DNA from: a virus
IMG/VR virus record: IMGVR_UViG_3300032293_000920
Coordinates: 1-37,250 of that record
Direction: 5' to 3' (one strand)
DNA length: 37,250 nt
The notes beneath the pieces were generated by a model. It was not told the origin of the DNA. It saw only the letters and a program-made list of their open reading frames with translations, and searched no databases. Position 1 is the first letter of the stretch. Every line of letters begins with the position of its first letter. Positions 353-37,250 of the stretch are shown piece after piece. The position numbers and the translations under genes were made by a program.

Positions 353-362
353 GTATATTTAT
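353..362 (+). promoter_or_regulatory. Candidate phage promoter motif before the glycosyltransferase block
   Basis: The sequence GTATATTTAT matches the recurrent motif (consensus about GTATATATTTATA) found in sense orientation upstream of many genes here. It lies after the stop of the Pro/Thr-rich gene and 17 bases before the ATG at 380. It is the only close match in the first 11 kb, so it may drive the carbohydrate operon. The promoter role is inferred from recurrence and placement. Confidence 0.45.
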
Positions 363-379
363 TGTCATATGGTTATATT

Positions 380-1546
380 ATGCGAATCGACATACCTTAC
401 AATCTTATAGGAAATTTAGAAGAAATAGATTTTATTGCATTTATTTTAGATAAAAATAATTCTGCTGTATATCGAACGGATATTAATCGAACGTTTAATG
501 AAAAAATTTTTCTCCAAAAAACAAAATATATAGAAGTGTCGGAACAACAATATAATGAGTGTGACACTATAATATTTTATCCATATAATAAAAAGGGTAC
601 GTGGGGAGAAAAAATTATAAGACGAAAAGATTCCGACCGCTTCTCAAAAAATGATACCGGTACCCATCTGGTAAAAAATAAAAAAAGTAAAGGTAACGTA
701 GATTTAGCAAAAAAGTGGATATTCGAGGGTGCGTCTATAGAAAAAGATAGCACAGTTGTTGGAGAAAAAAATCTAATATACTTCACGTTCTTCGGTGATA
801 AAACATATGCAAAACTGATGAAACTATTGCTTTCGACGCTTAAAAAGCAGCCATATAAAAATTTCGATCTATTGTTCATTACAGACAAGAAAACTTTACC
901 AGAAATAAAAAAAGCCAGAGAGTTAAAACATTTTAAGGTGGATTATCTTGTACGACCGACTATTAAAGATCCAGTCGATGCGTCTATGCAAAAACTTAAA
1001 ATATACGAGTATGGAAAAATAGACGACTATGGTCAGATATTATTTTTAGATTTGGATATACTTGCCGTTGGGGATTTATCAAAAATATTTGAGGAAAGAA
1101 CTAGACCAAATATTTTTTATTCTGGTGCGCATAGATGCAGTCACGGGATGCATAAGTCTATATATCACAGATTGATAGAGTATACTGGAAAGGAAATTGA
1201 ACGGCTTGAAAAGAGTAATACATTTCCATTCAATGCCGGTCAATTCTTTTTTAAAAACACGCCGACTATGCGTAGACACTTCGACAATATAAATAATTTT
1301 ATATCTGTGTGGGATGGGGAATATTTCTTTGAACAAAGTTTTTTGAATTGTTATTTTAACGTATTGGAAATGTCCAATGTATTTAAATTTAAAGAACAAT
1401 TTAGGTTCGTTTCTATTAACGAAAATGAATTATATAACAAATTTGACGAGGAAACGGTGTTTGTACATTTTATGGGCAGTGCTGCGGACGCAAAGGACAA
1501 GTTGTCGTTTATAAAAACTTATTATTCAAATTTATTGGATTTATGA
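380..1546 (+). CDS. GT8-like (GT-A fold) glycosyltransferase
   Basis: This 388-residue protein probably transfers a sugar from a nucleotide-sugar donor in the cytoplasm. Residues from about 130 resemble the GT8/glycogenin type. They begin with a beta strand (NLIYFTFFGDKTYA), a DxD metal-binding motif in ILFLDLDILAVGDL (near 224-226), an FNAGQFFF segment near 284, and a late VHFMG segment near 363, where the family has its C-terminal HxxG-type motif. The first 120 or so residues are a separate domain that I do not recognise. I chose the ATG at 380. A TTG at 362 in the same frame would add six residues but overlaps the promoter-like motif. It is the first gene of the carbohydrate block and is followed after 51 bases by a zinc-ribbon gene. 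The acceptor and the sugar are not visible from sequence. Confidence 0.75.
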   Translation: MRIDIPYNLIGNLEEIDFIAFILDKNNSAVYRTDINRTFNEKIFLQKTKYIEVSEQQYNECDTIIFYPYNKKGTWGEKIIRRKDSDRFSKNDTGTHLVKNKKSKGNVDLAKKWIFEGASIEKDSTVVGEKNLIYFTFFGDKTYAKLMKLLLSTLKKQPYKNFDLLFITDKKTLPEIKKARELKHFKVDYLVRPTIKDPVDASMQKLKIYEYGKIDDYGQILFLDLDILAVGDLSKIFEERTRPNIFYSGAHRCSHGMHKSIYHRLIEYTGKEIERLEKSNTFPFNAGQFFFKNTPTMRRHFDNINNFISVWDGEYFFEQSFLNCYFNVLEMSNVFKFKEQFRFVSINENELYNKFDEETVFVHFMGSAADAKDKLSFIKTYYSNLLDL

Positions 1547-2269: not shown

Positions 2270-4882
2270 ATGAAGATTTTATACATTGCTCCGCATCTGT
2301 CAACGGGTGGGTCTCCTCAGTATCTACTTAAGAAGATACAAATCTTAGTAAAAGAGCACGAAGTATATTGCATAGAATATTCAAATCACGGCGGATTTAC
2401 CGTGCAAAGAAACCAAATCAAGGAAATACTAAAGGATAGATTCTTTGAGTTGGGTGAGAATAAGATGAAAGCAATGGACATCATAGACAAGATAAATCCA
2501 GAAGTTGTACATCTTGAAGAAATGCCGGAATATTTCATGGATGGTAATCTTGCCATTGAATTGTATTCAAAGGATAGAAAATATAAACTCATAGAAACTT
2601 CTCACGACAGCAGTTTTAATCCTCAAAGTAAAACAATGTTTCCAGATAAAATATTGTTTGTAAGCAAATATCAAATGGAAACTTTGAAATCTTTGGATGT
2701 ACCTATGGATGTATGTGAATATCCAATAGTAATAAATCCAAGAAAGCCGCGTGAAGAAGCATTAAAGGTGCTTGGTTTGGACCCAAATAAGAAACACGTT
2801 ATAAATGTCGGCTTATTTACGCCAAGAAAAAATCAGGCAGAGATAATAGAATATGCCAAGCAACTTCGCAATTATCCCATTCAGTTTCATTTTATCGGAA
2901 ACCAAGCAGATAATTTCAAGTTTTATTGGGAACCTTTGCGGAAAGATTTTCCTCCAAACTGTACGTGGTGGGATGAACGCAAAGATGTGCATAATTTTTA
3001 TCAGGCAGCAGACCTGTTTCTATTTACTTCTCGTGGCACAAACAATGATAAAGAAACCAGTCCGCTTGTAATACGCGAAGCAATATCATATAACATACCA
3101 TCGCTGATATACAACTTACCTGTGTATCTTGGTATGTATGACAAGTACGAAAATATACAGTACTTGGACCTTGATTCCAAAGAAAATAATATAAACAAAA
3201 TATTAAAAACGTTAAAAATTGATTATATGGAAAAAAAATTTTATACAATGAAAGGTGAAGAAGATCTCTCCTCATACAAATATCCAAACACGGCGATGGA
3301 AATACTACAAAAATATGGAGATGGGGCGTGTATGTACTGGAACAATTTTGTATACAAAGAACTTGAGCGCTTTGACGTAACGGTTGATGCCGGGGACGTA
3401 TTCGTGGATCTTGGAGCAAATATCGGAATGTCCGCAAGATATGCTTATGATAAAGGTGCGAGAGAAATATATTGCTTCGAACCTGATCCGAATATGGTTG
3501 AAATATTGAAGAAAAACGTTCCTTCGGCAAAAATATATCAAAACGCTATAGATAAAGACATAAAAGAAATAGAATTATATCATTGGCCGCATAATCCGGT
3601 TAATATTGGTCCAAAATATAAAACGTCCACGGTGAGAATCGAGGACGTGATAAATATGATAGGGAAGCCTATAGACTATCTAAAGGTGGACATAGAAGGA
3701 TTTGAAGACTCTGCGTTCGATGAACTATCTCAGTCGGATTTGTCGATGGTTAAAAAATTTTTTATAGAACACCATATTCCAGAAAAAGTTAATCAATTTT
3801 GTGAAAAATTAAAGTCAAAGGGGCTTGATGTAAAAATTGAATATGGCATGGGACAGAATTTTATATACGCAACATTGTCAAAATTAAATAAAACAAAATA
3901 CAATTTTACCGTCAATTGGGATTCGGGTGAACAAAAAGTAACATATTCGTGCGATAAAGACATAAACTTACCCATAAGTATTACTCTCAGAGAATATAAG
4001 TCAAACGCAGTATTATGGTCCGCAGAGTATGATCATATTCCCGCAAACTGTAATTACTGGATGATTCCCATCCCAAAGAGTATCTGCGACTATTCTACGT
4101 CGGAATTTATATCTGGTATAAAGTTTTGTGTGTATAACAGAAATACAGATGAACAAATTTACGAATATCCATTTTTTCATAAATTTGTAAATATCCCAAC
4201 AGTAACATTGAGTAATAAAGCCCCATATTTTATAAATTATCTAGAATATTTTGTCGAAAATAAATACGATTGTTGGTTTAAGACTGGAAAAAAATTTAAT
4301 ACCGCGATAGACGTGGGAGCAAACATAGGAATTTTTACGGAATTTCTTATTCAAAATAAACTTGCGAAAAAAATTCTAGCAGTTGAATGCGACGACCAAG
4401 CATTGTATGATTTGAAAAAAAACTACGAGTTAAATGATAACGTGAAAATCATACAAAAAGCACTCAGTTATAGCAATGAACCTATCACATTTTACAAATG
4501 TAAAGAAAATTCTATCATAAGTACAACGATACCCCCCGAAAAAATAGTGCATCACGGTGCAGGTTCTATTAACAAAATAAAAACTGTCGTTGATACCATT
4601 ACTATAGAAGAAATTGTCAAAGAATTCGATCACATAGATTTACTAAAAATAGATGTAGAGGGGGCAGAGTATTCAATATTTGAAAAATTAAACAGCAATA
4701 TATCAAAAAATATAGATCATATGTTTATAGAATGCCATTTCTTTGAATCAGACTGCATTGAAAAGTATGAAATGCTGAAACAAAAGGTGATATCTATGGG
4801 ATATGAAATAGATGATAAATTAATTACTCGGGCAAATTCCAAAATTGGATCCAGCGAATCAATTTTTTGCACCAGAAAATAA
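2270..4882 (+). CDS. Fusion protein: GT4 glycosyltransferase, FkbM methyltransferase, beta-domain, second FkbM methyltransferase
   Basis: This 870-residue protein joins three catalytic domains. Residues 1-340 are a GT-B, GT4-type glycosyltransferase: the start MKILYIAPHLSTGGSPQ is typical, and Glu262 and Glu270 form an EX7E pair in KETSPLVIREAISYNIP. Residues about 345-540 are an FkbM-type SAM-dependent methyltransferase with motif I VFVDLGANIG (378-387) and YLKVDIEGFED (470-480). Residues 543-635 are a beta-rich linker related in pattern to those in the genes at 4885 and 9589. Residues about 645-870 are a second FkbM domain, with AIDVGANIG (679-687) and LLKIDVEGAEY. FkbM enzymes usually O-methylate sugars or polyketides, so the protein could add a sugar and methylate it. 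The two FkbM copies are clearly diverged, so this is not a recent duplication. The gene is followed by the next glycosyltransferase after a two-base gap. Confidence 0.88.
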   Translation: MKILYIAPHLSTGGSPQYLLKKIQILVKEHEVYCIEYSNHGGFTVQRNQIKEILKDRFFELGENKMKAMDIIDKINPEVVHLEEMPEYFMDGNLAIELYSKDRKYKLIETSHDSSFNPQSKTMFPDKILFVSKYQMETLKSLDVPMDVCEYPIVINPRKPREEALKVLGLDPNKKHVINVGLFTPRKNQAEIIEYAKQLRNYPIQFHFIGNQADNFKFYWEPLRKDFPPNCTWWDERKDVHNFYQAADLFLFTSRGTNNDKETSPLVIREAISYNIPSLIYNLPVYLGMYDKYENIQYLDLDSKENNINKILKTLKIDYMEKKFYTMKGEEDLSSYKYPNTAMEILQKYGDGACMYWNNFVYKELERFDVTVDAGDVFVDLGANIGMSARYAYDKGAREIYCFEPDPNMVEILKKNVPSAKIYQNAIDKDIKEIELYHWPHNPVNIGPKYKTSTVRIEDVINMIGKPIDYLKVDIEGFEDSAFDELSQSDLSMVKKFFIEHHIPEKVNQFCEKLKSKGLDVKIEYGMGQNFIYATLSKLNKTKYNFTVNWDSGEQKVTYSCDKDINLPISITLREYKSNAVLWSAEYDHIPANCNYWMIPIPKSICDYSTSEFISGIKFCVYNRNTDEQIYEYPFFHKFVNIPTVTLSNKAPYFINYLEYFVENKYDCWFKTGKKFNTAIDVGANIGIFTEFLIQNKLAKKILAVECDDQALYDLKKNYELNDNVKIIQKALSYSNEPITFYKCKENSIISTTIPPEKIVHHGAGSINKIKTVVDTITIEEIVKEFDHIDLLKIDVEGAEYSIFEKLNSNISKNIDHMFIECHFFESDCIEKYEMLKQKVISMGYEIDDKLITRANSKIGSSESIFCTRK

Positions 4883-4884
4883 AT

Positions 4885-7422
4885 ATGGTAATAGTTTTAT
4901 ACAGCGACGCTAAGTACGAATATCAGGTAAAATTTTGCATAGACTCTTTGCAAAATAATTCAGCCGATTTAAAAATATTATATTTTACTTTAAATTTTGA
5001 CAGTAGCATAAATGCCAATAATATAAAAAAAGTAAGAATAGATACACACAATAAATTCCCGTGTTTTAATTTTTATAAAACCGAATTGTGTATTAAAGCG
5101 ATGGAAATATTTCCGGAAGAAGAAAATTTTATATATTCCGATTCGGACGTTATTTTTTCTTCTCGCTTTAATCCCCGCGATATAGTTTGTGACACCGATT
5201 ATCCATTGGCAAGTTTTGGACCACATGAACTTCCATTTACTTGGGAACAAGATCCCACATCAAACAAGAAAACAGAGTTTAACCATTATGCGTTGATGGA
5301 ATATTTTGGTATACAGAAAGAATCTCAACGATATGTTTGGTCGTGTTTTTATTCGTACAACCGGCGTTGTTTAAACTTTTTCACAGAATTGTTGGAAATT
5401 TATAATAACGCAGAATTGATGAGAAATAAGAAATATTATTTTCCATTCAACGATGAGACACCGTTTAATATCTGCTTATGGAAATACAGTGCTAAAAAAA
5501 ATCTAGGATTTGCGTTTGTAAATACGCATTTGTTAAGCACGGTTGTGGAAGTTGAAGGTAAAAAATCTCAAAAAAAACTGGTTGGGTCTGTTCGCGATGC
5601 GTATGGATATGCGTGGGAATATATCCACGATCCAGACAAAGTTATATTTTATCATGGATGCAAAGATGAAAAAAGTATTGCAGAAATTGTAGATTATATA
5701 AAACAGGAAAAAATAAATCGTATACGAAATATATACAAAAATGATCAATCTTCAAACGACAAAAAAATAGCAATTGTAACATTGTATGATAAAAACTATG
5801 AAGATTTTGCAAAATATTCTGTGCCGAATAAGCTTAGATACGCGAATATTCATAAATATGACTTGATTGTATTTAACGATTCCATCGACAAAACAAGACC
5901 CCCTCAATGGAGTAAAATAAAAGCAGTGCAATCAGTTCTAAGTGACTATGATTGGGTTTGGTGGATAGATATCGACAGCATGATAATGAACTTTGATATA
6001 AAACTGGAGTCAATCATAGATGATCAATACGAAATGATTTTCACATCAAACGCACATTCCTATCTTTCAAACGGATCTTCTTTTTATAAAAACACCGACA
6101 ATATACATAAATTTTTAGCCGAATGTTATGATTTGAATTTAGATTGTCTCAAAAATATAAATGTTCACGTATTCGACCACGAGCAACAGCCCATGAGAAT
6201 ATTGCTGCAATCGAACAGCGAATATAAATCAAAAACTAAATTTATAAATGAACGAAGTTGCAACAGTTTTTGTAAAACGAACAACCCGGACGTGTTGAAA
6301 TATTATCCAAACTGGAACTCAGAGGATAATTTGTATCAAACTGGAGATTTTGTGATACAATTTTGCGGAAGAACAATACCAGAAAGACTAGAGAGTATGT
6401 TTGAATATATTTTACCAACAAATATTTCAGTATCTTTGTTTTCGGATGACATTTCTATCTTAAAATCTCAGTTGGATTCTATAAAAGAATCAAAATACAA
6501 CATAGAGGTATTAATGCCAAGATTATACCAAAAATTTAACAGTTTTTCTCAACTAGTTAATTATTCGGTAAACGAAACTTCTCGGGAATTTATGATTTTT
6601 GTAAATCCCAAAACTATGGTCAATCGCGATGATATAGACCAAATAATAAAAAAATTACATTGCGGATATTGCTTCGTCGGACTGGTTGGATTTGGATTAT
6701 TTGGCTGTACCAAACAGTTATTCAGAGAAGTTGGATTATTAGATGAAAGATTCCTTGGAGGGGAATATGAAGATAATGATTTTGCATTACGTTTGAAATT
6801 ACTAAACAAAGCCGTTTATGCCGAGTTAAACTTTAATAAATATAATTACGCACAGGCATATTCAGAATATAATCCAGTTCGTTGTTCTGCAATGACTAAA
6901 TTCTATGATAAATGGAATTTGGACCATGCAAATAATACATATTATATTTCCGAACTAGACTTTAAATCTAACAAAATTTCATACAGACACGGAAATAATG
7001 ATAGTATAAAATATTCCTGGTATAGTTTTGACAAATCGACAATTTCTTCCGCGTATAATGTGTTTAACTTGGCAAATACTCATTCCGTGAAAATAGTTAA
7101 TGCTAATAAAGTCAAAAGACTAGTAAAAACTAGATTAAATATTCACTTTGATTCCGAAAAAAATTTATCAGTGAGATGCGACTCCGATCCTTTGGAGCAT
7201 AACCCAATATCTTGCCACGTAGTAGCCGCCCCAGATTCGAACCGTCACAATGTAATATATGAACAAATACTATGCGCTAATACTTGGTGCGCAATTAATT
7301 TAGCCGACAAAAAATGTGAACTTAGAATATTTCACGTCGGAAGTTGTTTATATAAAAATGTTTTAATAGAACCAATCAACATAACTTTGGATTTAAACCT
7401 GTCCATAAACGTATATGAATAA
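4885..7422 (+). CDS. Protein with three glycosyltransferase-like domains plus C-terminal beta-domain
   Basis: This 845-residue protein appears to carry three GT-A type domains. Domain 1 (about 1-270) has a DxD-like motif in FIYSDSDVIFSS (near 86-88). Domain 2 (about 290-505) resembles GT34/GMA12-MNN10 enzymes: KIAIVTLYD, PPQWSKIKAVQSVL, then the metal site WWIDIDSMIMN (near 362-364), and a late HDEQQ-like segment FDHEQQPM. Domain 3 (about 512-700) resembles GT2 enzymes with a DERFLGGEYEDNDFALRLK segment, but its nucleotide-binding half is short, so it may be degenerate. Residues about 730-845 form a beta-rich tail like those of the neighbouring fusions. ATG at 4885 lies two bases after the previous stop. 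An upstream TTG at 4867 would overlap the previous gene. Specificity is unknown; the stack suggests sequential addition of several sugars. Confidence 0.8.
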   Translation: MVIVLYSDAKYEYQVKFCIDSLQNNSADLKILYFTLNFDSSINANNIKKVRIDTHNKFPCFNFYKTELCIKAMEIFPEEENFIYSDSDVIFSSRFNPRDIVCDTDYPLASFGPHELPFTWEQDPTSNKKTEFNHYALMEYFGIQKESQRYVWSCFYSYNRRCLNFFTELLEIYNNAELMRNKKYYFPFNDETPFNICLWKYSAKKNLGFAFVNTHLLSTVVEVEGKKSQKKLVGSVRDAYGYAWEYIHDPDKVIFYHGCKDEKSIAEIVDYIKQEKINRIRNIYKNDQSSNDKKIAIVTLYDKNYEDFAKYSVPNKLRYANIHKYDLIVFNDSIDKTRPPQWSKIKAVQSVLSDYDWVWWIDIDSMIMNFDIKLESIIDDQYEMIFTSNAHSYLSNGSSFYKNTDNIHKFLAECYDLNLDCLKNINVHVFDHEQQPMRILLQSNSEYKSKTKFINERSCNSFCKTNNPDVLKYYPNWNSEDNLYQTGDFVIQFCGRTIPERLESMFEYILPTNISVSLFSDDISILKSQLDSIKESKYNIEVLMPRLYQKFNSFSQLVNYSVNETSREFMIFVNPKTMVNRDDIDQIIKKLHCGYCFVGLVGFGLFGCTKQLFREVGLLDERFLGGEYEDNDFALRLKLLNKAVYAELNFNKYNYAQAYSEYNPVRCSAMTKFYDKWNLDHANNTYYISELDFKSNKISYRHGNNDSIKYSWYSFDKSTISSAYNVFNLANTHSVKIVNANKVKRLVKTRLNIHFDSEKNLSVRCDSDPLEHNPISCHVVAAPDSNRHNVIYEQILCANTWCAINLADKKCELRIFHVGSCLYKNVLIEPINITLDLNLSINVYE

Positions 7423-8341
7423 TAAAAAAATATTTATAACCGGTGGAGCTGGGTTTTTGGGAAAAGCCCTCGTTAAGAGATACTACGAAAATAACGAGAT
7501 TACTATATACAGCAGAGACGAAGCAAAGCATTATTATTTAAAAAAGCAATTTCCAAAAATACGATGTGTCATCGGTGATATAAGAAATTATGACCTCATG
7601 CGCAGAGCGTCTGTCGGCCACGATATAGGAATATTCGCCGCCAGCCTTAAACAGATAGAAGCAGTTGATCAGAATGTGGAAGAAGCATTAGAAGTGATTG
7701 TAAGAGGCGCCATAAACAGTAGGCGAGTATCTGAAGAAAATTCGTTCAGCGCCGCGTGTTTTATTTCATCCGATAAAAGCAGGGCTGCTACAACGTTGTA
7801 TGGTTCTATGAAATTTGTCGCGGGTGAATCTTTTATTGTCAATCCTCCAAAAATTGGATGTAAGCTGAGTTCTGCAATATATGGTAATGTGTTGAATTCT
7901 ACGGGGAGCGTTATTCCACTTATTTGGAATGCTATATTTAACAAATATTCACTTACATTATATTCGCCGGAAATGACCAGATTTATGATCACTATAGAAC
8001 AGGCAATGGACCTGATCGAAGTCAGTCTTAATTATAATGGATATAATGTCATACCTAAGCTGAAAAGTTTTAGAATAAAAGATCTGTTCGAGATATATGC
8101 CGAAAAATTTGGTCTCAAATATGATATAGGCCAGCCTAGAATATCTGAAAAGATACACGAGATCATGATATCTTCCGAGGAAATGCCCAGAACAAATCAA
8201 GACGACAAGTATTTTTATATGCACTACAAGGATATTTTTAACTCGCAGTCAGAGTCGATTGACTATTCAAGTAAAGATCAAGTCGTCTCGAAGGAAGAAC
8301 TTGACGCAGTACTTAAACAATTAAACTACTATAAGACATGA
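7415..8341 (+). CDS. CapD/PseB-like extended SDR, probable nucleotide-sugar 4,6-dehydratase
   Basis: This 308-residue protein has an N-terminal Rossmann motif (KKIFITGGAGFLGKAL), a GDIRN segment after the second strand, and a YxxxK site in LYGSMK preceded by ISSDKSRAATT. That layout is typical of the polysaccharide biosynthesis CapD/PseB/FnlA group, which makes UDP-4-keto-6-deoxy-HexNAc sugars. The usual GAxxVP-type region appears as TGSVIPLIW, followed by TRFMITIEQAMDLI, which matches the family's TRF(W/M) segment. It lacks the long membrane-bound N-terminus of CapD and so is the soluble short form. The start overlaps the previous stop by eight bases, and the next gene overlaps its stop by four. 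Context with the RmlD-like reductase two genes downstream suggests a deoxyhexose precursor pathway. The substrate is inferred. Confidence 0.82.
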   Translation: MNNKKIFITGGAGFLGKALVKRYYENNEITIYSRDEAKHYYLKKQFPKIRCVIGDIRNYDLMRRASVGHDIGIFAASLKQIEAVDQNVEEALEVIVRGAINSRRVSEENSFSAACFISSDKSRAATTLYGSMKFVAGESFIVNPPKIGCKLSSAIYGNVLNSTGSVIPLIWNAIFNKYSLTLYSPEMTRFMITIEQAMDLIEVSLNYNGYNVIPKLKSFRIKDLFEIYAEKFGLKYDIGQPRISEKIHEIMISSEEMPRTNQDDKYFYMHYKDIFNSQSESIDYSSKDQVVSKEELDAVLKQLNYYKT

Positions 8342-8886
8342 AAGAAATACATCTGAGAAATGCGTGGCCACATGCCCATGAGCACGTAGAAGTGATCGAA
8401 CATATTGCAAAATGGCTTAAGCCAGAGAGATATTTGGAAATTGGCGTATTTCAGGGAAAATGTTTGAATAAAATTCAAACACATGCCAAAGAGTGTTATG
8501 CCGTGGATGTCAATTTCATGCGAAAGAATTTTGACAAAAATGTATTTTTATTTCAGATGACAAGTGATGCGTTTTTTAACACAATAACAAAAGACTTAAA
8601 GTTCGACATGGCGTTCATAGACGGTGATCACAACAAAGATCAAGTGTATAAGGATTTCATGAACGTAAAAGACAGAATTATAGACGACGGATTTGTGATA
8701 TTGCACGATTCATATCCAATAGATGAAGGAATGCTGTCCCCACATCTGTGCGAAAATTCGTGGGAGGCTGTCAGAGATATAAAGGCCCAGTTTCACACCG
8801 AATGGGAGATATTGACATTGCCATTCAATCCCGGATTGACTCTGATGAAAAAGATGAAGATAGAAAAACAAATACTATGGAAATAA
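8338..8886 (+). CDS. Small class I SAM-dependent methyltransferase (Methyltransf_24-like)
   Basis: This 182-residue protein has motif I in RYLEIGVFQGKCLNKI, an acidic strand end in CYAVDV, motif IV-like DMAFIDGDHNKDQV and the following DGFVILHDSYP. These features match class I methyltransferases of the Methyltransf_24 type found in sugar and cephalosporin-hydroxylase-like clusters. It probably transfers a methyl group to a small molecule or glycan in the cytoplasm. It overlaps the upstream dehydratase gene by ATGA and the downstream reductase by ten bases, which indicates translational coupling. It is much shorter than the FkbM domains of the fusion gene and not closely similar to them. The acceptor is not visible. 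Confidence 0.82.
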   Translation: MKEIHLRNAWPHAHEHVEVIEHIAKWLKPERYLEIGVFQGKCLNKIQTHAKECYAVDVNFMRKNFDKNVFLFQMTSDAFFNTITKDLKFDMAFIDGDHNKDQVYKDFMNVKDRIIDDGFVILHDSYPIDEGMLSPHLCENSWEAVRDIKAQFHTEWEILTLPFNPGLTLMKKMKIEKQILWK

Positions 8887-9602
8887 AAACCGTAATGATA
8901 CTCGGACATAGGGGAATGTTGGGCCATATGGTGGCGAAATATTTTACAGGAAAATACGCTTGTGCGTTTGTTGATGCGAGGTTTCCATCCGAAGAATTCA
9001 AAGATGCGGTTAAAAACTTCAAAGGGGATTATATCATAAACTGCATCGGTGCGATTCCACAAAAAACAAATACATTCGACATCAACTACGATCTTCCTGT
9101 TTGGCTGTCCGAAAATGCAACATGCAAAGTAATACATCCGGGAACAGACTGTGAGATGGACGATGATCCATACGGTGTATCGAAAAAACGCGCATCTGAC
9201 TATATCAAGGCTAAATCGGTGAACACAAAAATAATCAAGGCTTCAATCATAGGTCCAGAAGTCGAGACGGCGAAATCGTTATTGTACTGGTTTCTAAATA
9301 GCACAGGTGAGGTAAAAGGATATAAAAATGCGATGTGGAACGGAATAACCACCTTCGAGTGGGCGAAAATATGCCAAACGGTGATGTTGTACTGGCCAGT
9401 GTTCGAAAAAGAAACCATCGTACAAAGTGACTGTGTATCGAAATATGATATCTTGTGTTCCATAAAAGAAGTATATCAAAAAGATATTAATATAATTCCA
9501 TTTGAAAATAAAAGACTTGACAAATGTTTAAATGGTACTATATTAACTAAATCCATAAAAGAACAGTTGATCGAAATGAAATCGTATTATGAAGGTAATT
9601 AA
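8877..9602 (+). CDS. RmlD-like SDR, probable nucleotide-sugar reductase
   Basis: This 241-residue protein begins with a Rossmann motif (VMILGHRGMLGHMVAKYF) as in dTDP-4-dehydrorhamnose reductase (RmlD) and the FnlB/CapF reductases. A YxxxK catalytic pair is seen in DPYGVSKKRASDY, and NCIGAIPQ follows the strand where the family has NCAA. RmlD is usually about 290-300 residues, so this one is short. It would reduce the 4-keto sugar made by the dehydratase at 7415 with NAD(P)H. I chose ATG at 8877, just inside the preceding gene; the open frame continues upstream to 8748 but that extension lies wholly within the methyltransferase gene. The 3' end overlaps the next gene by 14 bases. Confidence 0.8.
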   Translation: MEIKTVMILGHRGMLGHMVAKYFTGKYACAFVDARFPSEEFKDAVKNFKGDYIINCIGAIPQKTNTFDINYDLPVWLSENATCKVIHPGTDCEMDDDPYGVSKKRASDYIKAKSVNTKIIKASIIGPEVETAKSLLYWFLNSTGEVKGYKNAMWNGITTFEWAKICQTVMLYWPVFEKETIVQSDCVSKYDILCSIKEVYQKDINIIPFENKRLDKCLNGTILTKSIKEQLIEMKSYYEGN

Positions 9603-11706
9603 TGTAAATCCTGGTTTGCTGCCCATTCCTCCGAATGGATGGGGTGCTGTAGAAAAAATCATATGGGACTATCATCAAGAGATGCTAAACATAGGCGTCC
9701 GAAGCGAAATTAGATACACCGATGATGTGACATACGACGATAGTACGATTGTGCATGTACACGTAGCAAATTTAGCAAACTTGCTGCACGGACGTGGTAT
9801 ACCATATATTTTCACTATTCACGATCATCATGCATATTTGTACGGCAAAGATTCCCAGTTATTCAAAGAAAATCTAAAAGCGATTGAGAACAGCGTGTTT
9901 TCACTTTCTCCGTGCAAGTATCTTGTGCCATACTTTGGTAGCAAGAAACTTAGATACTTTAGTCACGCGGTAAATACAGATATTTTTACATTCAATAATC
10001 GCCAGAGACACAAAAACTTGAAGTTGCTTTGTGTAGCGAACAACGGATATGCATATGACCAGAGCATAGATAGAAAAGGATTCAAGATTGCAATACAGGC
10101 AGCAAAGACGCTCGGCTTACCAATTACGATTGCTGGACCAAGAAACAATGACAATTTCTTCAAGACGCTTGAGCCAGAACTAAACGGTTATACTGGTCTT
10201 ACTAAGTTATACGATCTTGATGAAAAATGGCTGACTCATTTGTATAATGAAAATGATGCATTTCTTCACTTTTCTGAACTTGAAGCCGGTCATCCTAACC
10301 TTACATTACTTGAGGCTATGGCGAGTGGATTGCCAGTCATAGGCACATTTGAAGAAGATACATACAAAGGTATGGCAGTATGCAAACGAGATTTAGACGA
10401 GGCAATTGCTGCAATAAAGAACGTTGACGCTAACTATGATAAATTTAGAGAAGATGCACTCGCGAACGCAAAATCAAATTCATACAAAAACAGAGTTCAT
10501 GAATTGGTTGGGTTGTATAGTGAATATAGAGAACGTATTTTTGGAAATAAACTCATCGAGTGCTACTCAAACTGTGAAAAAGTAGTCAAGGACGCAAAAA
10601 ATAATATTTTGATCAATTTTCCACAAGGCCCAAAGGTAGAAATACTTGGACCAATAAGCAGAAAACATAAGATAAAGTTTATTGATACAGACAAAAATCA
10701 GATAGTATATGAAACAATCATCGGAAATAATATGTGGGCTACAAGTAGCATAAAATATTTCTGTAAATGGAAGATAGAAGTATACGAAATAGTTGGAGAA
10801 AACTGGGAGAGGTTGGTACACACTCACGTATATAATGCGGAAGGTAAAGACGTAAAAGTTATACTTGATACAGAAAGTGTGGGAGATCTTATTGCGTTTA
10901 TTGGGTCGGTTGAAGAGTTTAGAAAACAACATAAATGTAAAATGCATTGTGTTGTATTTTCTAAGCCTTTGCGCGAGTTATTTAAAAAGTCTTATTCAAA
11001 TATCAACTTCTTGGATAAAAACCCAAGCGATGATGCATATTATGCAACGTATAACATAGGATATTTTGAGGAATGGAAAGACCGGCTAATTACGAACCCG
11101 AAAAGATTATCGCTTTCACACATAGCATCACAAATACTTGGACTTGGAAACAAAGAGTTTAAACCAATACTACAGTATGATAAGCCTTCTCTATCAAAGA
11201 AAAAATATGTATGTATATTTACACAAAGTACCGCTCAGTCAAAATATTGGAATAATGAAGACGGATGGAAAACTGTAATAAATTATTTGAACAAAAAAGG
11301 ATATGAAGTATGGTGCATAGACAGATATAGTTCTTTTGGAACAAAAACAAAAATGAACTATATCCCACCCGGCGCAATCGATAAGACAGGCGATTATAGT
11401 CTTGAAGTAAGAATGCAGCAAATACACAACGCCGAATTCTGCATCGGATTGAGTTCTGGATTAAGTTGGCTTGCTTGGGGAGTAAATAAGCCTGTCATAC
11501 TTATTAGTGGATTTACAGAAGAATTTAATGAGTTTGAAACGCCATATAGAATAATCAACAAAAATGTATGTAATGGCTGTTGGAACGATATTGACTGTAA
11601 GTTTGACAAAGGCGACTGGATGTGGTGCCCGCGAAACAAGGATTTTGAATGCACCAAGAAGATATATCCGCAAGATGTTATAGATGTTATAAATAAAATA
11701 ATATAA
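9589..11706 (+). CDS. Fusion of GT4 glycosyltransferase and BAHT/TibC-like O-heptosyltransferase
   Basis: This 705-residue protein has three parts. Residues 1-320 are a GT4-like glycosyltransferase (NPGLLPIPPNGWGAVEKI at the start; GHPNLTLLEAMASGLPVIG near 234-252). Residues about 338-425 are a beta-domain (INFPQGPKVEILG). Residues about 425-705 match the autotransporter O-heptosyltransferase family (BAHT, TibC, Aah), with STAQSKYWNNEDGW, GYEVWCIDRY, GLSSGLSWLAWGVNKPVILISGF and a Cys cluster CNGCW...DC...WCP...FEC (Cys661, 664, 670, 680, 688). In characterised family members the Cys cluster binds iron and the enzyme transfers heptose to Ser residues of autotransporter repeats. The family assignment of the C-terminal part is strong, but donor and acceptor here are inferred. 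The GT4 first Glu of the EX7E pair is not in its usual place. It is the last gene of the overlapping block. Confidence 0.87.
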   Translation: MKVINVNPGLLPIPPNGWGAVEKIIWDYHQEMLNIGVRSEIRYTDDVTYDDSTIVHVHVANLANLLHGRGIPYIFTIHDHHAYLYGKDSQLFKENLKAIENSVFSLSPCKYLVPYFGSKKLRYFSHAVNTDIFTFNNRQRHKNLKLLCVANNGYAYDQSIDRKGFKIAIQAAKTLGLPITIAGPRNNDNFFKTLEPELNGYTGLTKLYDLDEKWLTHLYNENDAFLHFSELEAGHPNLTLLEAMASGLPVIGTFEEDTYKGMAVCKRDLDEAIAAIKNVDANYDKFREDALANAKSNSYKNRVHELVGLYSEYRERIFGNKLIECYSNCEKVVKDAKNNILINFPQGPKVEILGPISRKHKIKFIDTDKNQIVYETIIGNNMWATSSIKYFCKWKIEVYEIVGENWERLVHTHVYNAEGKDVKVILDTESVGDLIAFIGSVEEFRKQHKCKMHCVVFSKPLRELFKKSYSNINFLDKNPSDDAYYATYNIGYFEEWKDRLITNPKRLSLSHIASQILGLGNKEFKPILQYDKPSLSKKKYVCIFTQSTAQSKYWNNEDGWKTVINYLNKKGYEVWCIDRYSSFGTKTKMNYIPPGAIDKTGDYSLEVRMQQIHNAEFCIGLSSGLSWLAWGVNKPVILISGFTEEFNEFETPYRIINKNVCNGCWNDIDCKFDKGDWMWCPRNKDFECTKKIYPQDVIDVINKII

Positions 11707-21152: not shown

Positions 21153-22760
21153 ATGTCAGATATTAAATCACTACTAACTGAGACAACCAATCCAATGGTT
21201 AAGCTCATGACCGAAACCCGTGGACTTGTTTCCAAATGGGAAAAAACTGGTCTTCTAGAAGGTATCAAGAGCGACATGGAAAAGTCACACATGTCCATTC
21301 TTCTGGAAAATCAGGCTAAACAACTAATCGACGAAGCTACCCGTACAGGAACTTCAAGCAACAGTGAACAGTGGGCAGGCGTTGCTCTACCATTGGTTCG
21401 CCGTGTTTTTGCTGAAATTGCTGCCAAGGAATTCGTAAGCGTTCAGCCAATGAACCTACCATCCGGTCTAGTATTCTATCTAGACTTCAAGTATGGCACC
21501 GATCAAGCCGGTAAGCCAGCGTTTAGCGGTAATTCGCTATTTGGCGGAACTGGTACAAAATTGGGTTCGACCGATAGCGCCGTTAATGGTCTATATGGTC
21601 AGGGTCGTTTTGGCTATACCATCAACGACCAGTCGTCAACAGAAACATCCGCAGTAACAACCGCTTCTTGGGCTGATACAAACTTCACCCCAGAACTGAG
21701 TGCTTCTGCTGCTGCTGGTTCTATCCGCAAAGTCCGCGTTGACTTGGCTGATACAAACTTTGACGCCAATGGTATTCGTGCATTCACCGTCTCTGGATCC
21801 GGAATCGTAGATTTCTATCCAGCATTCACAAGCACATCTGGAGATTACGTTTACTTCGTTGTTTCCGCATCTGCTCTGACCGCAACCGAATCCGTATTGG
21901 TAAAGTATCACAAGCAGCCAGCAGACACAAGTCGTGGCGACTTCGAAGACAACGCTGCTTCCGCAGGCGCTGGAACTTCCGGTCTATATGCCGATGTTGG
22001 TATTCCAGAAGTAAACCTAGAACTTAAGTCTGAAGCCATCGTTGCAAAGACCCGTAAGTTGAAGGCCGTCTGGACACCAGAATTGGCACAGGACTTGAAC
22101 GCATATCACTCAATCGACGCAGAAGCAGAACTTACTGCTCTATTGAGCGAATACGTTTCAATGGAAATCGATCTCGAAATCCTCGATATGTTGCTGGTCA
22201 ATGCTCCAGCAGTAACAACTGAATACTGGTCCGCTCGTATCGGTGCTGAATACAACGCCACAACTGGCTTGTTCGCAGACACCGCTGCTAACCGTACCGC
22301 CTATGTCAAGAGCACCTGGTTCCAGACATTGGGCAACAAGATTCAGAAGGTCAGCAACAAGATCCACCAGTTGACCCTGCGTGGTGGTGCAAACTTCCTA
22401 GTTTGCAGCCCAGACGTTGCTACCATCATCGAAAGCATCCCTGGCTTCACAACCAACACGGACGGCGATCAAGCCAAGTTCGCAATGGGTGTTGCCAAGG
22501 TTGGTTCCTTGAGCAATCGTTGGACCATCTACAAGAACCCATACATGACCGACAACGTCATGTTGGTTGGTTTCCGTGGAAGCAACTTCCTAGAAACCGG
22601 CGCAGTATATGCTCCATACATCCCACTGATTCAGACACCATTGGTGTACGACCCAGTGAACTTCACACCACGCCGTGGCGTGATGACACGTTATGCCAAG
22701 AAGATGATCCGTCCAGAGTTCTACGGAAAGATCATCATCGGCAACTTGAACGAAGTCTAA
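21153..22760 (+). CDS. 23: Major capsid protein (T4 gp23-like)
   Basis: This 535-residue protein builds the icosahedral shell (HK97 fold). The N-terminus MSDIKSLLTETTNPMVKLM leads to SILLENQAKQLIDEATR; cleavage after Glu52 (L-L-E) matches the T4 gp23 maturation site, followed as in T4 by Asn-Gln. PLVRRVFAEIAAKEF and VSVQPMNLPSGLVFYLDFKYG are gp23 hallmarks. Residues about 130-270 contain a variable insertion-type region (Ser/Thr/Ala-rich), followed by the conserved VAKTRKLKAVWTPELAQDL and DAEAELTALLSEYVSMEIDLEILD. The end has the typical TPRRGVMTRYAKKMIRPEFYG. The ribosome binding sequence AAAGGA (21142-21147) lies five bases before ATG. A strong terminator follows 34 bases after the stop. 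Codon use looks more GC-rich than the neighbours, consistent with high expression. Confidence 0.95.
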   Translation: MSDIKSLLTETTNPMVKLMTETRGLVSKWEKTGLLEGIKSDMEKSHMSILLENQAKQLIDEATRTGTSSNSEQWAGVALPLVRRVFAEIAAKEFVSVQPMNLPSGLVFYLDFKYGTDQAGKPAFSGNSLFGGTGTKLGSTDSAVNGLYGQGRFGYTINDQSSTETSAVTTASWADTNFTPELSASAAAGSIRKVRVDLADTNFDANGIRAFTVSGSGIVDFYPAFTSTSGDYVYFVVSASALTATESVLVKYHKQPADTSRGDFEDNAASAGAGTSGLYADVGIPEVNLELKSEAIVAKTRKLKAVWTPELAQDLNAYHSIDAEAELTALLSEYVSMEIDLEILDMLLVNAPAVTTEYWSARIGAEYNATTGLFADTAANRTAYVKSTWFQTLGNKIQKVSNKIHQLTLRGGANFLVCSPDVATIIESIPGFTTNTDGDQAKFAMGVAKVGSLSNRWTIYKNPYMTDNVMLVGFRGSNFLETGAVYAPYIPLIQTPLVYDPVNFTPRRGVMTRYAKKMIRPEFYGKIIIGNLNEV

Positions 22761-23599: not shown

Positions 23600-23619
23600 A
23601 ACCTTTGTTGTATTTTATA

Positions 23620-23835: not shown

Positions 23836-23842
23836 AGTTATT

Positions 23843-30208: not shown

Positions 30209-30212
30209 TATT

Positions 30213-30632
30213 ATGGACAATTTTTTCATAGTTCAAAATGGGTTGGTGGTAAATGCAAGTCCATTTGCTACGGGCAGTGCTTCTGGATCATATCAGTTGT
30301 TGCTTACCAACAACACGATGGCGTATATGAATTGCAGTGTCGCTACAGCATCCGAAAACCAATCTACTGTCATCGACAGTTTTAGTAAAAGTTGGGGAAA
30401 TACAGCAAAATGGCTACTTTCTATAGGAAGTGGCTCTAATTTTAAAACTAGCGAACTTTTAGCCGTGTGGGATCCTAACACTAACAATACAAATCATGCC
30501 GAATATACAACAAATGCATTGGGTACAGTACCTTCGTTTATGTCCGTGAATATTAGTGGGGGTAATGTAAGATTGGTAGCATATCCTACCTCTGGATCTT
30601 GGACGGTAAAAATGCTACGTTTTGTTATATAA
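30213..30632 (+). CDS. Small structural protein with the shared C-terminal domain
   Basis: This 139-residue protein has a short leader beginning MDNFFIVQNGLVVNASPFATG, which resembles the starts of the next two genes (IV-x-NGL-x-V). It has a C-terminal domain, residues 45-139, shared with its neighbours: VIDSFSKSWGNTAKWLLSI, FKTSELLAVWD and VRLVAYPTSGSWTVKM. It looks like a free-standing copy of the domain with a minimal attachment leader. Function is unknown; fibre, whisker or decoration protein is likely from context. It starts four bases after the previous stop, so the two are probably translated together. Confidence 0.75.
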   Translation: MDNFFIVQNGLVVNASPFATGSASGSYQLLLTNNTMAYMNCSVATASENQSTVIDSFSKSWGNTAKWLLSIGSGSNFKTSELLAVWDPNTNNTNHAEYTTNALGTVPSFMSVNISGGNVRLVAYPTSGSWTVKMLRFVI

Positions 30633-30652
30633 AAACTACTTTCAAATCAACC

Positions 30653-30664
30653 GTTATATTTATA
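30653..30664 (+). promoter_or_regulatory. Candidate phage promoter motif
   Basis: GTTATATTTATA lies 21 bases before ATG at 30686. It is one base different from the consensus at position three. Confidence 0.55.
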
Positions 30665-30685
30665 ATATATAGAAAACCATAACCT

Positions 30686-32023: not shown

Positions 32024-32045
32024 ACATTAAATAAAGTTGCATCGG

Positions 32046-32134
32046 TTTTCTTGTGGATAGTGAAGCAAGAAAACATGAAAAACAATAAAATTTACAGTCA
32101 GTGTGTAGAGTGTGTTTCCATATTGATGGAAACA
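32046..32134 (+). promoter_or_regulatory. Two hairpins in a long leader before a fibre gene
   Basis: TTTTCTTG (32046-32053) pairs with CAAGAAAA (32066-32073) around 12 bases. TGTTTCCA (32113-32120) pairs with TGGAAACA (32127-32134) around six bases. Both are perfect eight-base stems in the 127-base gap before ATG 32151, which has no TATATTTATA-type motif. The second is only 16 bases from the start codon and could control translation or be an RNA-processing site. The first could be a weak terminator of the upstream gene, but lacks a T run. Confidence 0.4.
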
Positions 32135-32158
32135 AGAAAGGCGTGCTATTATGTCTAA
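32075..32158 (+). CDS. Possible 27-codon leader ORF overlapping the fibre start
   Basis: ATG at 32075 opens 27 codons (MKNNKIYSQCVECVSILM...) and stops at TAA 32156-32158, overlapping the ATG of the fibre gene at 32151 in another frame. It spans the second hairpin and contains a CxxC pair. Such an arrangement could couple translation. No good ribosome binding site precedes it, and an ORF this short may be chance. Confidence 0.2.
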   Translation: MKNNKIYSQCVECVSILMETRKACYYV

Positions 32159-33906: not shown

Positions 33907-34716
33907 ATGCCACTAACGTTACGTTCAAATACAAATGCTACAACGCTAAAGTTAAGAAATGTAAATAATGCTGGTAGTTTTTTTGTTAGAAAAGGCCCGC
34001 CAGATATTGTAAGAGATGGTCTTGTTATGCATCTTGATGCTGCTAATCCATATAGTTATGTTAGTGGCAGCAGTACTTGGTTTGATTTGAGTGGAAATAA
34101 TAACAGCGGTTCATTGTTCAATGGCCCAATTTACAGTAATAATAATGGCGGCAGTATTGTCTTTGACGGAGTCGATGACGTTGTTATTATAGGAAAATTT
34201 CCATATACTCTAAACAATATAGGAACAAATGATGTCACTGTAAATGTATGGTCAAAGATAAGTGTATCTGATGCAAATACCAGATATCAGATTGGCGTTT
34301 TTCCAAGAGTCGGTACGGCATTTCCTCTCGGTTACGTCAACGGTAAAATGCACGCATCGTTCTCTGGATATAATGACACCACATCGTATTTTTTTTCAGT
34401 TTATGGTACATCCACTACATTGCCATTAAATACGTGGATCATGACTACGTCGGTGATAGATAGAAGTTCAGATATAAAATTATATTTTAACGGAGAGACT
34501 GAACCAATAAGCGGATCGGCTAATATAAGTTCTGTTGATGGTGTAACTTTTAATCCATCGTCTGTATATCCAGTTTGTATTGGCGGTTCAGAGTTTCGTG
34601 GTCCGCAACGTCTACATCAAGGTAGCATATCAATCGCTCAACTATATTTCCGAGCACTTTCCGCAGCAGAAGTAAAACAAAATTATGACGCCATAAAAGG
34701 TAGATATGGCTTATAA
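33907..34716 (+). CDS. LamG / concanavalin A-like lectin-fold structural protein
   Basis: This 269-residue protein consists mainly of one concanavalin A-like (LamG type) beta-sandwich, about residues 34-265. Typical elements are DGLVMHLDAANPYSY, STWFDLSGNNNSGSLFNGP, GGSIVFDGVDDVVII, a central VTVNVWSKI strand and the closing FRALSAAEVKQNYDAIKGRYG. This domain binds carbohydrates or mediates protein contacts in phage adhesins. The short N-terminus (MPLTLRSNTNATTLKLRN) may attach it to the virion. Ribosome binding sequence GGAGG at 33891-33895 is encoded in the end of the previous gene, eleven bases before ATG. It belongs to the fibre operon and is a likely receptor-binding or glycan-binding component. 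Confidence 0.88.
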   Translation: MPLTLRSNTNATTLKLRNVNNAGSFFVRKGPPDIVRDGLVMHLDAANPYSYVSGSSTWFDLSGNNNSGSLFNGPIYSNNNGGSIVFDGVDDVVIIGKFPYTLNNIGTNDVTVNVWSKISVSDANTRYQIGVFPRVGTAFPLGYVNGKMHASFSGYNDTTSYFFSVYGTSTTLPLNTWIMTTSVIDRSSDIKLYFNGETEPISGSANISSVDGVTFNPSSVYPVCIGGSEFRGPQRLHQGSISIAQLYFRALSAAEVKQNYDAIKGRYGL

Positions 34717-34767: not shown

Positions 34768-37250
34768 ATGGCAGATAAAATCATACATTTACGCAGTTTA
34801 GCAACAGGTTCAATACCAACAACAGCATCATTGGGCGTTGGTCAGTTTGCTATAAACGTACCCGATGGTCGTATATTTTTAAGAAAATCTAGTAGTGCTG
34901 AAGACGTAATCATATCTGCGATTACTACAAACTCGGAAAATATAGGTGATGTATTTTTGACTGGAAGCTTAAATGTAAATGGTGGAATAACAGGTAGTGT
35001 ATATGGCACTTCAAGTTGGGCAGTTACTGCATCATATGCTTTGAATTTTAGTGGAACCTCTGGAACGTCTGGCACAGGTGGTTCATCTGGAACTAGCGGA
35101 TCTTCAGGTAGCAGTGGAACGAGTGGTTCTTCTGGTTCGTCCGGAACTGGTGGATCTTCAGGTAGCAGTGGAACGAGTGGTTCTTCTGGAACATCTGGTT
35201 CAACCGGGTCTTCTGGAACAAGCGGGTCAACAGGTTCAAGTGGAACCAGTGGGCAAAACGGGTCATCCGGTACAAGTGGATCCACAGGTTCTAGTGGAAC
35301 AAGTGGTTCTTCGGGATCTAGCGGTACATCCGGTTCAACTGGATCCAGTGGTACAAGTGGGCAGACCGGATCAAGCGGAACAAGTGGATATTCTGGGCTG
35401 ACTCCAAGTGAATATGTTGTACAAGGAAAATTGACCGCCAACCAGTCAATTCCAAGTAGTACAGATACTATTATTGATTTTGTAGATGATTTTGATCCAC
35501 AAAACTGGTGGAATACGACTACGGATAGATTTACACCAACTGTTGCGGGTTATTATATGATTGCCGCCGGAGCGTGGTTTGCCGATCCTGGATCAACAAA
35601 CAGTCAGATGAATCTACAGGCAAGAAAGAACGGATCTACTTTTGCCATTCATCAAACTCCTAATAATACTTCCGGAGAAGGGCAATGGCTTGGGTTTACA
35701 AAAATAGTTTATCTTAATGGAACAACAGATTATGTAGATTTTACTATTTATCAAAATACTGGCATTAGCAGAAATCTTCAATACGGCACTTCCGATGGTT
35801 CTGGAACTTGGTTTTCAGCCGCTTTGATGGTAGGAGGAAGTTCTTCTGGAACGGCTGGAAGTAGTGGTACAAGTGGTACAACCGGATCTAGTGGTACGAG
35901 CGGCGCTAATGGGTCAAGTGGTACAAGTGGTGCAAATGGGTCAAGCGGTACAAGCGGATCTACTGGGTCAAGTGGAACAAGTGGTTCTACGGGTTCAAGT
36001 GGAACTGCCGGTTCTTCTGGATCGAGTGGAGAAAATGGTTCAAGTGGAACAAGTGGTTCTACTGGTTCAAGTGGAACTTCTGGGTCGTCTGGATCAACTG
36101 GAACGAGTGGCTCTTCTGGATCAACTGGAACGAGTGGCTCAAGTGGGACATCTGGCACGAGTGGAACATCTGGAAGCAGTGGAACTAGTGGTACTTCCGG
36201 TTCATCTGGAACAAGTGGAAGCAGTGGAACATCTGGTAGCAGTGGTACTTCCGGTACATCGGGGTCATCCGGTACAAGTGGTACTTCTGGATATACTCCA
36301 GAAAACATGGTCACCAGTTCATTTCAACTCAGCAATGGAGGCGGAGTAGCATTTAGCAGTGCCAATAATGTAACTTTTGGACAGATTACTGCTTCAAACA
36401 TAACAGTAACGAATTTGTATGTTCAGTATGTTTCAAGTTCTATCGATTATGTTTCTGGTAGTGTTTATATCACCGGTTCGCTGACAGTATCCGGCTCTAC
36501 AAATTTAATTAGCCCAACGGGTCAAACAGTATTATCAACTAATGCGGATGTTATAGAATTTACCGGTTCCTTGTTTGCTTCAGCCTCGATGATTGTTACT
36601 GGAAGTGTTTCTATACAGGGAGGACTTACTGCTTCTTTGTATGGTACGTCTAGTTGGGCGGTTACTGCATCGTATGCATTGAGTTATTCCGGAACTAGCG
36701 GAACCTCGGGCGAAAACGGGAGCAGTGGAACGAGTGGGTCTTCTGGAACAAGCGGATCTTCCGGTACGTCGGGAACAGATGGAACCAGCGGTTCGTCTGG
36801 TACATCTGGTAGCAGCGGCACAAGTGGATCAACTGGTTCGTCTGGTACTTCTGGCACATCTGGTAGCAGTGGCACAAGTGGATCGACTGGTTCGTCTGGT
36901 ACAAGTGGATCGACTGGTTCGTCTGGTACAAGTGGATCGACTGGTTCGTCTGGTACAAGTGGATCAACTGGTTCGTCTGGTACAAGTGGATCGACTGGTT
37001 CGTCCGGTACAAGTGGATCGACTGGTTCGTCTGGTACTTCTGGCACATCTGGTAGCAGTGGCACAAGTGGATCAACTGGTTCGTCTGGTACAAGTGGATC
37101 GACTGGTTCGTCCGGTACTTCTGGCACATCTGGTAGCAGTGGCACAAGTGGATCAACTGGTTCGTCTGGTACAAGTGGATCGACTGGTTCGTCTGGTACT
37201 TCTGGCACATCTGGTAGCAGTGGCACAAGTGGATCAACTGGTTCGTCTGG
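34768..37250 (+). CDS. Giant collagen-like fibre protein with C1q-like domain (3' truncated)
   Basis: The frame from ATG 34768 is open for 827 codons to the window end. The N-terminus MADKIIHLRSLATGSIPTTA, to about residue 95, is a head domain ending in GTSSWAVTASYALNF. Residues 96-210 are 38 Gly-X-Y triplets with X and Y almost always Ser or Thr. Residues 212-357 form a globular domain with the C1q/TNF-like jelly-roll pattern (RFTPTVAGYYMIAAGAWF, NLQARKNGSTFAI, a late WFSAALMVGG). Residues 361-508 are 49 further triplets in the same phase. A beta segment (512-640) repeats the GTSSWAVTASYAL motif, and a third Gly-X-Y stretch runs from 642 to the edge. This matches the plan of collagen-like trimeric fibres, but the triplets lack Pro. 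It would make a long flexible fibre with a globular head. Confidence 0.88.
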   Translation, partial: MADKIIHLRSLATGSIPTTASLGVGQFAINVPDGRIFLRKSSSAEDVIISAITTNSENIGDVFLTGSLNVNGGITGSVYGTSSWAVTASYALNFSGTSGTSGTGGSSGTSGSSGSSGTSGSSGSSGTGGSSGSSGTSGSSGTSGSTGSSGTSGSTGSSGTSGQNGSSGTSGSTGSSGTSGSSGSSGTSGSTGSSGTSGQTGSSGTSGYSGLTPSEYVVQGKLTANQSIPSSTDTIIDFVDDFDPQNWWNTTTDRFTPTVAGYYMIAAGAWFADPGSTNSQMNLQARKNGSTFAIHQTPNNTSGEGQWLGFTKIVYLNGTTDYVDFTIYQNTGISRNLQYGTSDGSGTWFSAALMVGGSSSGTAGSSGTSGTTGSSGTSGANGSSGTSGANGSSGTSGSTGSSGTSGSTGSSGTAGSSGSSGENGSSGTSGSTGSSGTSGSSGSTGTSGSSGSTGTSGSSGTSGTSGTSGSSGTSGTSGSSGTSGSSGTSGSSGTSGTSGSSGTSGTSGYTPENMVTSSFQLSNGGGVAFSSANNVTFGQITASNITVTNLYVQYVSSSIDYVSGSVYITGSLTVSGSTNLISPTGQTVLSTNADVIEFTGSLFASASMIVTGSVSIQGGLTASLYGTSSWAVTASYALSYSGTSGTSGENGSSGTSGSSGTSGSSGTSGTDGTSGSSGTSGSSGTSGSTGSSGTSGTSGSSGTSGSTGSSGTSGSTGSSGTSGSTGSSGTSGSTGSSGTSGSTGSSGTSGSTGSSGTSGTSGSSGTSGSTGSSGTSGSTGSSGTSGTSGSSGTSGSTGSSGTSGSTGSSGTSGTSGSSGTSGSTGSS
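35053..35397 (+). repeat. First collagen-like Gly-X-Y stretch
   Basis: Every third codon is Gly from residue 96 to 210 of the fibre. X and Y are mostly Ser/Thr, with rare Gly, Asn, Gln, Tyr. The DNA copies vary silently. Confidence 0.92.
35848..36291 (+). repeat. Second collagen-like Gly-X-Y stretch
   Basis: Gly recurs every three residues from 361 to 508 without a phase break. Ala, Glu and Asn occur occasionally in the X or Y positions. Confidence 0.92.
36691..37250 (+). repeat. Third collagen-like stretch with 27-bp and 81-bp DNA repeats
   Basis: Gly-X-Y continues from residue 642 to the window end. Unlike the first two stretches it is nearly identical at the DNA level: a 27-base unit (encoding TSGSTGSSG) repeats from about 36865, and a higher-order 81-base period is seen at 37036, 37117 and 37198, with an earlier related copy at 36847. 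The array is unfinished at the edge. Confidence 0.92.

Follow-up and report, generated by a model that had tools for sequence, protein, structure and literature searches.

The stretch of viral DNA analyzed here (the window; 37,250 bases of an IMG/VR record of the linear class, which is probably a fragment) carries a sugar operon at 1-11.7 kb, with enzyme genes spanning 362-11706, a T4-type major capsid gene and, at its right end, a gene for a collagen-like fibre (Table 1). The operon had been mentioned in passing in a reading of the sequence alone (the sequence-only reading), and it is indeed present. The nearest relatives of the capsid protein are found in Microcystis phage Mel-JY01 (57%) and in Flavobacterium immuto phages (56%). 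The neighbor of the fibre gene encodes a laminin-G/ConA-like lectin protein, which from its family match is likely another adsorption protein.

Table 1. Features of the window, in order of position.
Feature	Coordinates	Strand	Basis or remark
36-bp tandem repeat at left contig edge	3-338	+	frame 3 gives a Thr/Pro/Ala-rich tail, later PEPTPEPT; possible further O-glycan acceptor
GT8-like glycosyltransferase	362..1546	+	Pfam PF01501 above cut-off
GT4 plus FkbM methyltransferase	2270..4882	+	Pfam/NCBIfam profiles
GT34-like glycosyltransferase	4867..7422	+	PF05637 E 2e-17
Nucleotide-sugar dehydratase, PseB/FnlA-related	7415..8341	+	PF02719 E 3e-40
Methyltransferase	8338..8886	+	PF13578 E 5e-12
GT4-TibC fusion	9589..11706	+	aa 1-330 GT4-like; aa 332-704 bacterial autotransporter heptosyltransferase (BAHT)
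T4-type major capsid protein	21153..22760	+	
Two genes opposite to the surrounding late operon	22844-24592	-	without family match
HNH/homing endonuclease-like ORF	27402-28292		overlaps end of head-tail adaptor-like gene
Adjoining structural proteins with TASYA/FAGTASYA repeats	28781-33905		common C-terminal module; 147-bp tandem at 30905-31211
Laminin-G/ConA-like lectin protein	33907..34716	+	PF13385 E 1.5e-11
Fibre gene	34768..37250	+	ORF 34768-37248; ATG start, 827 codons, 3' end missing
N-terminal domain, aa 1-94	34768..35049	+	phage fibre N-terminus-like
First GTSSWAVTASYAL module, aa 80-92	35005..35043	+	directly before run 1
Gly-X-Y run 1, aa 96-212	35053..35403	+	39 triplets
C1q/TNF-like head, aa 212-357 (predicted)	35401..35838	+	
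Gly-X-Y run 2, aa 361-510	35848..36297	+	50 triplets
Second non-collagen linker, aa 511-641	36298..36690	+	ends in second GTSSWAVTASYAL module
Second GTSSWAVTASYAL module, aa 626-638	36643-36681	+	directly before run 3
Gly-X-Y run 3, aa 642-827	36691..37248	+	at least 62 triplets, cut by contig end

The fibre ORF has no stop codon before the contig end, which falls within a repeat. Its product matches tail fibre and collagen-like minor tail families in PHROGs (E down to 3e-62) as well as Pfam Collagen (E 5e-61), and its N-terminal domain matches PHROG 29752 (E 2e-6) and, at weaker E-values, tail-fibre PHROGs. This domain is kept at 67-72% identity in two viral records (L054 and L056), both of which hold Ser/Thr (S/T) Gly-X-Y repeats. 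The three runs together comprise 151 triplets with the Gly phase unbroken within each run, and when the same residues were shuffled 2000 times, the longest stretch with Gly at every third residue was 11 triplets. The X and Y positions (n = 302) are 94% Ser/Thr, with Ser outnumbering Thr in the repeats (192:91), and contain no Pro, no Lys, 2 Glu and 1 Asp. These counts bear out the sequence-only reading in its claims of more than 140 triplets with almost no Pro, Lys or Glu, and of a duplicated module ahead of two of the stretches; its description of the triplets as Ser/Thr-only holds for the bulk of the positions but not for the few occupied by N, A, Q, Y, E, L or D. The linker between runs 2 and 3 gave no family match in Pfam and PHROGs profile searches.

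Repeats of this kind could be DNA slippage products without selected function, and run 3, with 81% self-identity at 81 bp and a TRF score of 463, points to a more recent tandem amplification than runs 1 and 2. However, the Gly codons in the runs are invariant (GG) at positions 1 and 2 and nearly free at position 3 (1.60-1.71 bits), Ser is encoded by both TCN and AGY, and the DNA self-identity of runs 1 and 2 is only about 53-69%. Because of this third-base freedom, the use of both Ser codon groups and the low self-identity, selection is likely to act at the protein level, and from the codons the Gly-X-Y pattern looks conserved rather than recently generated by slippage. Slippage without selection was rejected on this evidence of constraint in runs 1 and 2; with the same pattern present in many unrelated phages, we regard it as highly improbable.

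As in the sequence-only reading, the globular domain lies between runs, here 1 and 2, and is not terminal. The head alone had no match in Pfam, and a phmmer search of the PDB returned a weak chance match only. An alignment of 29 heads, with relatives gathered from viral contigs, shows the conserved motifs F-x-P-x-x-x-GYY, RKNG, LNG-T-DY-VDF and FSAALM; Pfam C1q matches 13 of the 29 members weakly (best E 9e-4), and a profile built from all of them retrieved only C1q family chains from the PDB at E<=1. The AlphaFold model of residues 212-357 as a monomer has a pLDDT of 93.3, and Foldseek places C1QL3 (E 4e-10), C1QL1, C1q and Caprin-2 C1q domains as its best non-phage structures (TM 0.74-0.82 by target), in a top group that also includes the central spike of phage phi812. 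The best matches in BFVD are phage proteins that already carry C1q domains in their names. The model and the profile support a predicted jelly roll of the C1q/TNF type, the outcome of the structure prediction against C1q that had been proposed for this domain, and the resemblance to C1q noted at the outset was right. Its nearest relative (71% identical) is found within a Pro-rich collagen fibre (L002) and others occur in Gly-X-Gln or non-collagen proteins, so that the head, judged by its relatives, is modular. The idea of a phage counterpart to the collagen-C1q plan is supported by the runs and the head but is not new: the databases contain phage proteins named for C1q domains and, in some cases, for collagen repeats, and marine phages have been known to carry C1q domains since 2014 (PMC3909814).

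The fibre has the long uninterrupted Gly-X-Y of collagen-type proteins, and its 151 triplets contain neither the imino acids nor the charge pairs in X and Y that are usual, if not strictly defining, for that type. Triplets of Ser and Thr have a low triple-helix propensity. The stretches might be flexible or mucin-like linkers, or resemble polyglycine II, rather than triple helices, and the trimer would then be in contact only through its C1q-like and beta modules; besides the composition of the runs, the tolerance of relatives for aromatic X (GYSGIS, GWSGTS) over hundreds of triplets, unusual for collagen, speaks for such an arrangement. A mere linker would nevertheless have no need of a Gly phase kept over 39, 50 and 62 triplets or of the observed freedom at the third codon position, and in related fibres, such as L002, S/T and Pro-rich Gly-X-Y freely replace one another flanking the same head. 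We consider the linker reading possible, at somewhat less than even odds; as it is compatible with glycosylation, it overlaps with the explanation that we prefer.

That explanation involves the sugar operon. A reading of the operon as generic glycosyltransferases only was replaced after the match of the fusion enzyme to NCBIfam TIGR04414 (TibC; autotransporter O-heptosyltransferases), in which the C-terminal half scores 353.7 bits (E 1e-105) against a curated cut-off of 200; by Pfam alone, TibC falls below threshold. The dehydratase in the same operon matches TIGR03589 (E 2e-49, below the equivalog cut-off). The TibC half aligns end to end with the PDB structures of TibC (4RB4/4RAP, E about 1e-71 to 1e-72) and has the equivalents of Asp110, Thr226, Lys230, Arg286 and Trp305, as well as the four-Cys iron finger (Cys339/342/358/370). 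Asp110, Lys230, Trp305, Arg286 and the iron-finger Cys residues are needed for TibC activity (PMC4358343). Residue 300 is Ser, as in AAH, an enzyme that accepts both heptose donors (PMC4358343). Among 53 sequences (the window enzyme and its viral relatives), the equivalents of Asp110, Lys230 and Trp305 are present in all and the four Cys in 51, whereas Arg286, kept in the window enzyme, occurs in only 24. A GT4 domain precedes TibC in 10 of 10 full-length genes examined, the tenth identified by its GT4 domain and TIGR04414 match. On this sequence evidence, the C-terminal half belongs fully to the BAHT family.

BAHT enzymes O-glycosylate Ser in repetitive bacterial surface proteins; TibC itself modifies Ser, not Thr, and forms a ring around a rod-shaped substrate (PMC4358343). 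By analogy, a Ser-rich rod is a plausible TibC-type acceptor, although in the known BAHT acceptor the repeats are strand-loop-strand units of a beta-helix and not Gly-X-Y (PMC4358343). Family scans showed no autotransporter among the window genes covered. The enzyme gene lies 23 kb from the fibre gene in the window contig.

Among 50 relatives of the fibre, TIGR04414 occurs only with those whose Gly-X-Y is S/T-richest, namely L043 (0.93), L039 (0.86), L052 (0.79) and L009/L014 (0.77), with L052 matching strongly (E 2e-53) though short of the curated cut-off. It is absent from the likewise S/T-rich L054 (0.87), L011 (0.77) and L051 (0.75); in L054, where the N-terminus has its best relative, S/T repeats are present yet 96.7 kb contain no TibC. 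As TibC was restricted to the S/T-richest of these relatives, a co-occurrence test was designed on IMG/VR. The S/T set came from a DNA-pattern scan for ten S/T triplets, after which compositions were read and 47 contigs of >=20 kb were picked before TIGR04414 was searched; a matching scan for Gly-Pro-X repeats gave 45 control contigs. Both sets were taken from among the scan matches listed and are arbitrary, not random, with lineages that are shared and thus not phylogenetically independent.

TIGR04414 is found above cut-off in 22 of the 47 S/T-pure Gly-X-Y contigs and in 2 of the 45 Pro-collagen contigs, both of which (L148, L207) also hold S/T runs from the first scan, leaving 0 of 43 Pro-only contigs (Fisher p 3e-8 for 22/47 against 0/43, uncorrected for kinship among contigs). 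In contigs of >=60 kb, a split set after the data were seen, the enzyme is present in 14 of 17 S/T contigs as against 0 of 14 Pro-only contigs and 0 of 12 with proline-free hydrophobic G-x-S repeats. The generic GT2 family (PF00535) shows no such bias (11/47 S/T versus 15/45 Pro-collagen contigs), which speaks against a general enrichment of glycosyltransferases as the cause. Clustering of the 22 TibC enzymes gives 21 groups at 70% identity and 7 at 50%.

The reverse association, from TibC to S/T repeats, is weak: a strict S/T Gly-X-Y run was present in 1 of 12 TibC contigs of >=20 kb, so that either the enzyme has other acceptors too or these contigs are too short or fragments. In four contigs (L090, L095, L096, L097) Gly-(A/N/T)-Gln collagens that include short GTS pieces are encoded no more than about 10 kb from the TibC gene, and Gln/Asn-rich collagens may be a second class of TibC acceptor. 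Separately, six records (L004, L029, L048, L061, L075, L072) represent a large class of Gly-X-Ser repeats that are free of proline and have an aromatic or hydrophobic residue at X (e.g. GYSGIS, GWSGTS, GLSGIS, GCSGFS), in up to about 1000 triplets per protein; these are chemically odd for collagen, and TibC is absent from those of the records that were tested.

Named phages also carry the enzyme. A tblastn search with the TibC domain matched 4 of 50,697 phage records, and of the three distinct genomes with TibC in the phage database, two also have S/T Gly-X-Y repeats near the enzyme. In Mel-JY01 (PP395634), the reading frame at 2-3049 holds 203 S/T-rich Gly-X-Y triplets of the GTSGSSGTSGTRG type, the enzyme gene (WWT39291, annotated as methyltransferase FkbM) lies 1.7 kb downstream, and a second S/T stretch is present at 9143-9983. 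The fibre gene of this phage (PP395634, 1-3052; L405) is mis-annotated, with CDS WWT39287 called inside it on the minus strand. In the 735-kb genome LR756501 and its equal-length companion LR756503, about 5 kb separate S/T repeats from the enzyme, and LR756501 has 1277 S/T repeat matches genome-wide. LR756504 has the enzyme and no S/T Gly-X-Y run in the record. An immuto phage, whose capsid protein is about as close to that of the window as the one of Mel-JY01, has no S/T repeats and is not among the TibC tblastn matches.

These associations could still arise if the glycosyltransferase operon, including its TibC half, acted elsewhere, on a host surface polysaccharide or on some other protein of the phage, and if S/T repeats went with it through shared lineages or habitats. 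Phage glycosyltransferases are usually read as modifiers of host LPS (PMC7029224), many TibC contigs are without S/T Gly-X-Y, and the window offers other possible acceptors, for example in its TASYA repeat proteins and in the Thr/Pro-rich tail at its left edge. Against this, TIGR04414 is a family of protein-Ser glycosyltransferases (PMC4358343), the bias is specific, with none for GT2 or for Pro-rich or hydrophobic collagens, and the S/T-linked TibC enzymes are diverse. We consider action on another target unlikely.

Our preferred reading, to which we assign a probability of roughly 0.6, is that the gene encodes an adsorption fibre whose S/T rod is hyper-O-glycosylated by the GT4-TibC enzyme. 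From the repeats, the fold of the head, the complete set of BAHT residues and the co-occurrence, all of them observed, we infer a trimer, its glycosylation, the kind of sugar and its role as follows. The product would be a long phage adsorption fibre, its three chains joined through trimeric C1q-like and beta-rich modules and its rod made up of the long proline-free G-[ST]-[ST] stretches. Such triplets being intrinsically weak collagen, the rod is most likely coated with sugars by the phage. Ser residues of the repeats would receive a heptose-like sugar from the BAHT (TibC-type) half of the fusion, and its GT4 half, together with the neighboring GT8, GT4-FkbM and GT34 enzymes, may extend or methylate this sugar. 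The glycan would stiffen, hydrate and protect the rod, whether this is a triple helix as in collagen or an extended trimer of the mucin type, and host contact would be made by the C1q-like head or heads and the C-terminus beyond the contig end. Glycosylated Ser/Thr as a source of stability, as first suggested from the sequence, thus has a specific candidate enzyme and a controlled co-occurrence in its favor.

A broader proposal, that many phages have proline-free collagen-type rods stable only through a phage-encoded GT4-TibC that O-heptosylates Ser in Gly-[ST]-[ST], is put forward tentatively, being in our judgment more doubtful than the reading of this fibre. If true, it would describe a self-contained system of virion glycosylation with sugars in place of proline, provide a concrete enzyme and acceptor for glycosylation of phage tail fibre proteins, and add a new class of acceptor to the TibC family. 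It would also be nature's own test of whether a sugar can take the place of proline in collagen, and would open another way to read some of the phage glycosyltransferase clusters that are currently annotated as modifiers of host LPS. As Mel-JY01 is an isolate, the idea is directly testable. The sugar side is the new part, C1q-type domains of phage fibres being already known, and the open-access literature searched held no paper linking TibC to S/T Gly-X-Y fibres.

Several known systems share parts of this arrangement. Phage C1q-domain proteins, from marine metaviromic islands (PMC3909814), MW202796, Synechococcus phages and BFVD, likewise have a C1q/TNF-like jelly roll in a structural protein, and are thought to recognize the host. 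In contrast to these, the head in the window lies between proline-free S/T runs, with a protein O-glycosyltransferase alongside. The EPclA/EPclB side-tail collagens of E. coli O157:H7 prophages have a Gly-X-Y stalk with globular ends, in a trimeric fibre; EPclA is Pro-rich in X, has many charged residues and is unglycosylated, unlike the proline-free stalk of the window (PMC3368898). Glycosylation of threonine is a known way to stabilize collagen, and is absent in EPclA (PMC3368898).

A Gly-X-Y stalk with a C1q/TNF-like domain is also found in BclA of Bacillus spores and in complement C1q and adiponectin, which are trimeric. The stalks of BclA and C1q contain Pro and their heads are terminal, and BclA comes from spores and its sugar enzymes are different ones. 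BclA is glycosylated (reviewed in PMC8968730).

Like the pelagimyophage host-recognition clusters (PMC7029224), the window comes from a T4-like phage with tail fibres, collagen repeats and many glycosyltransferases; these enzymes are read there as modifiers of host O-chains, and the accessible part of that study proposes no link to fibre glycosylation. With TibC and AAH (PMC4358343) the window enzyme shares a score above the family cut-off, the catalytic Asp and Lys, the Trp and the four iron-finger Cys; it differs from them in being phage-encoded and fused to GT4, with no autotransporter seen, and in its proposed Gly-X-Y acceptor.
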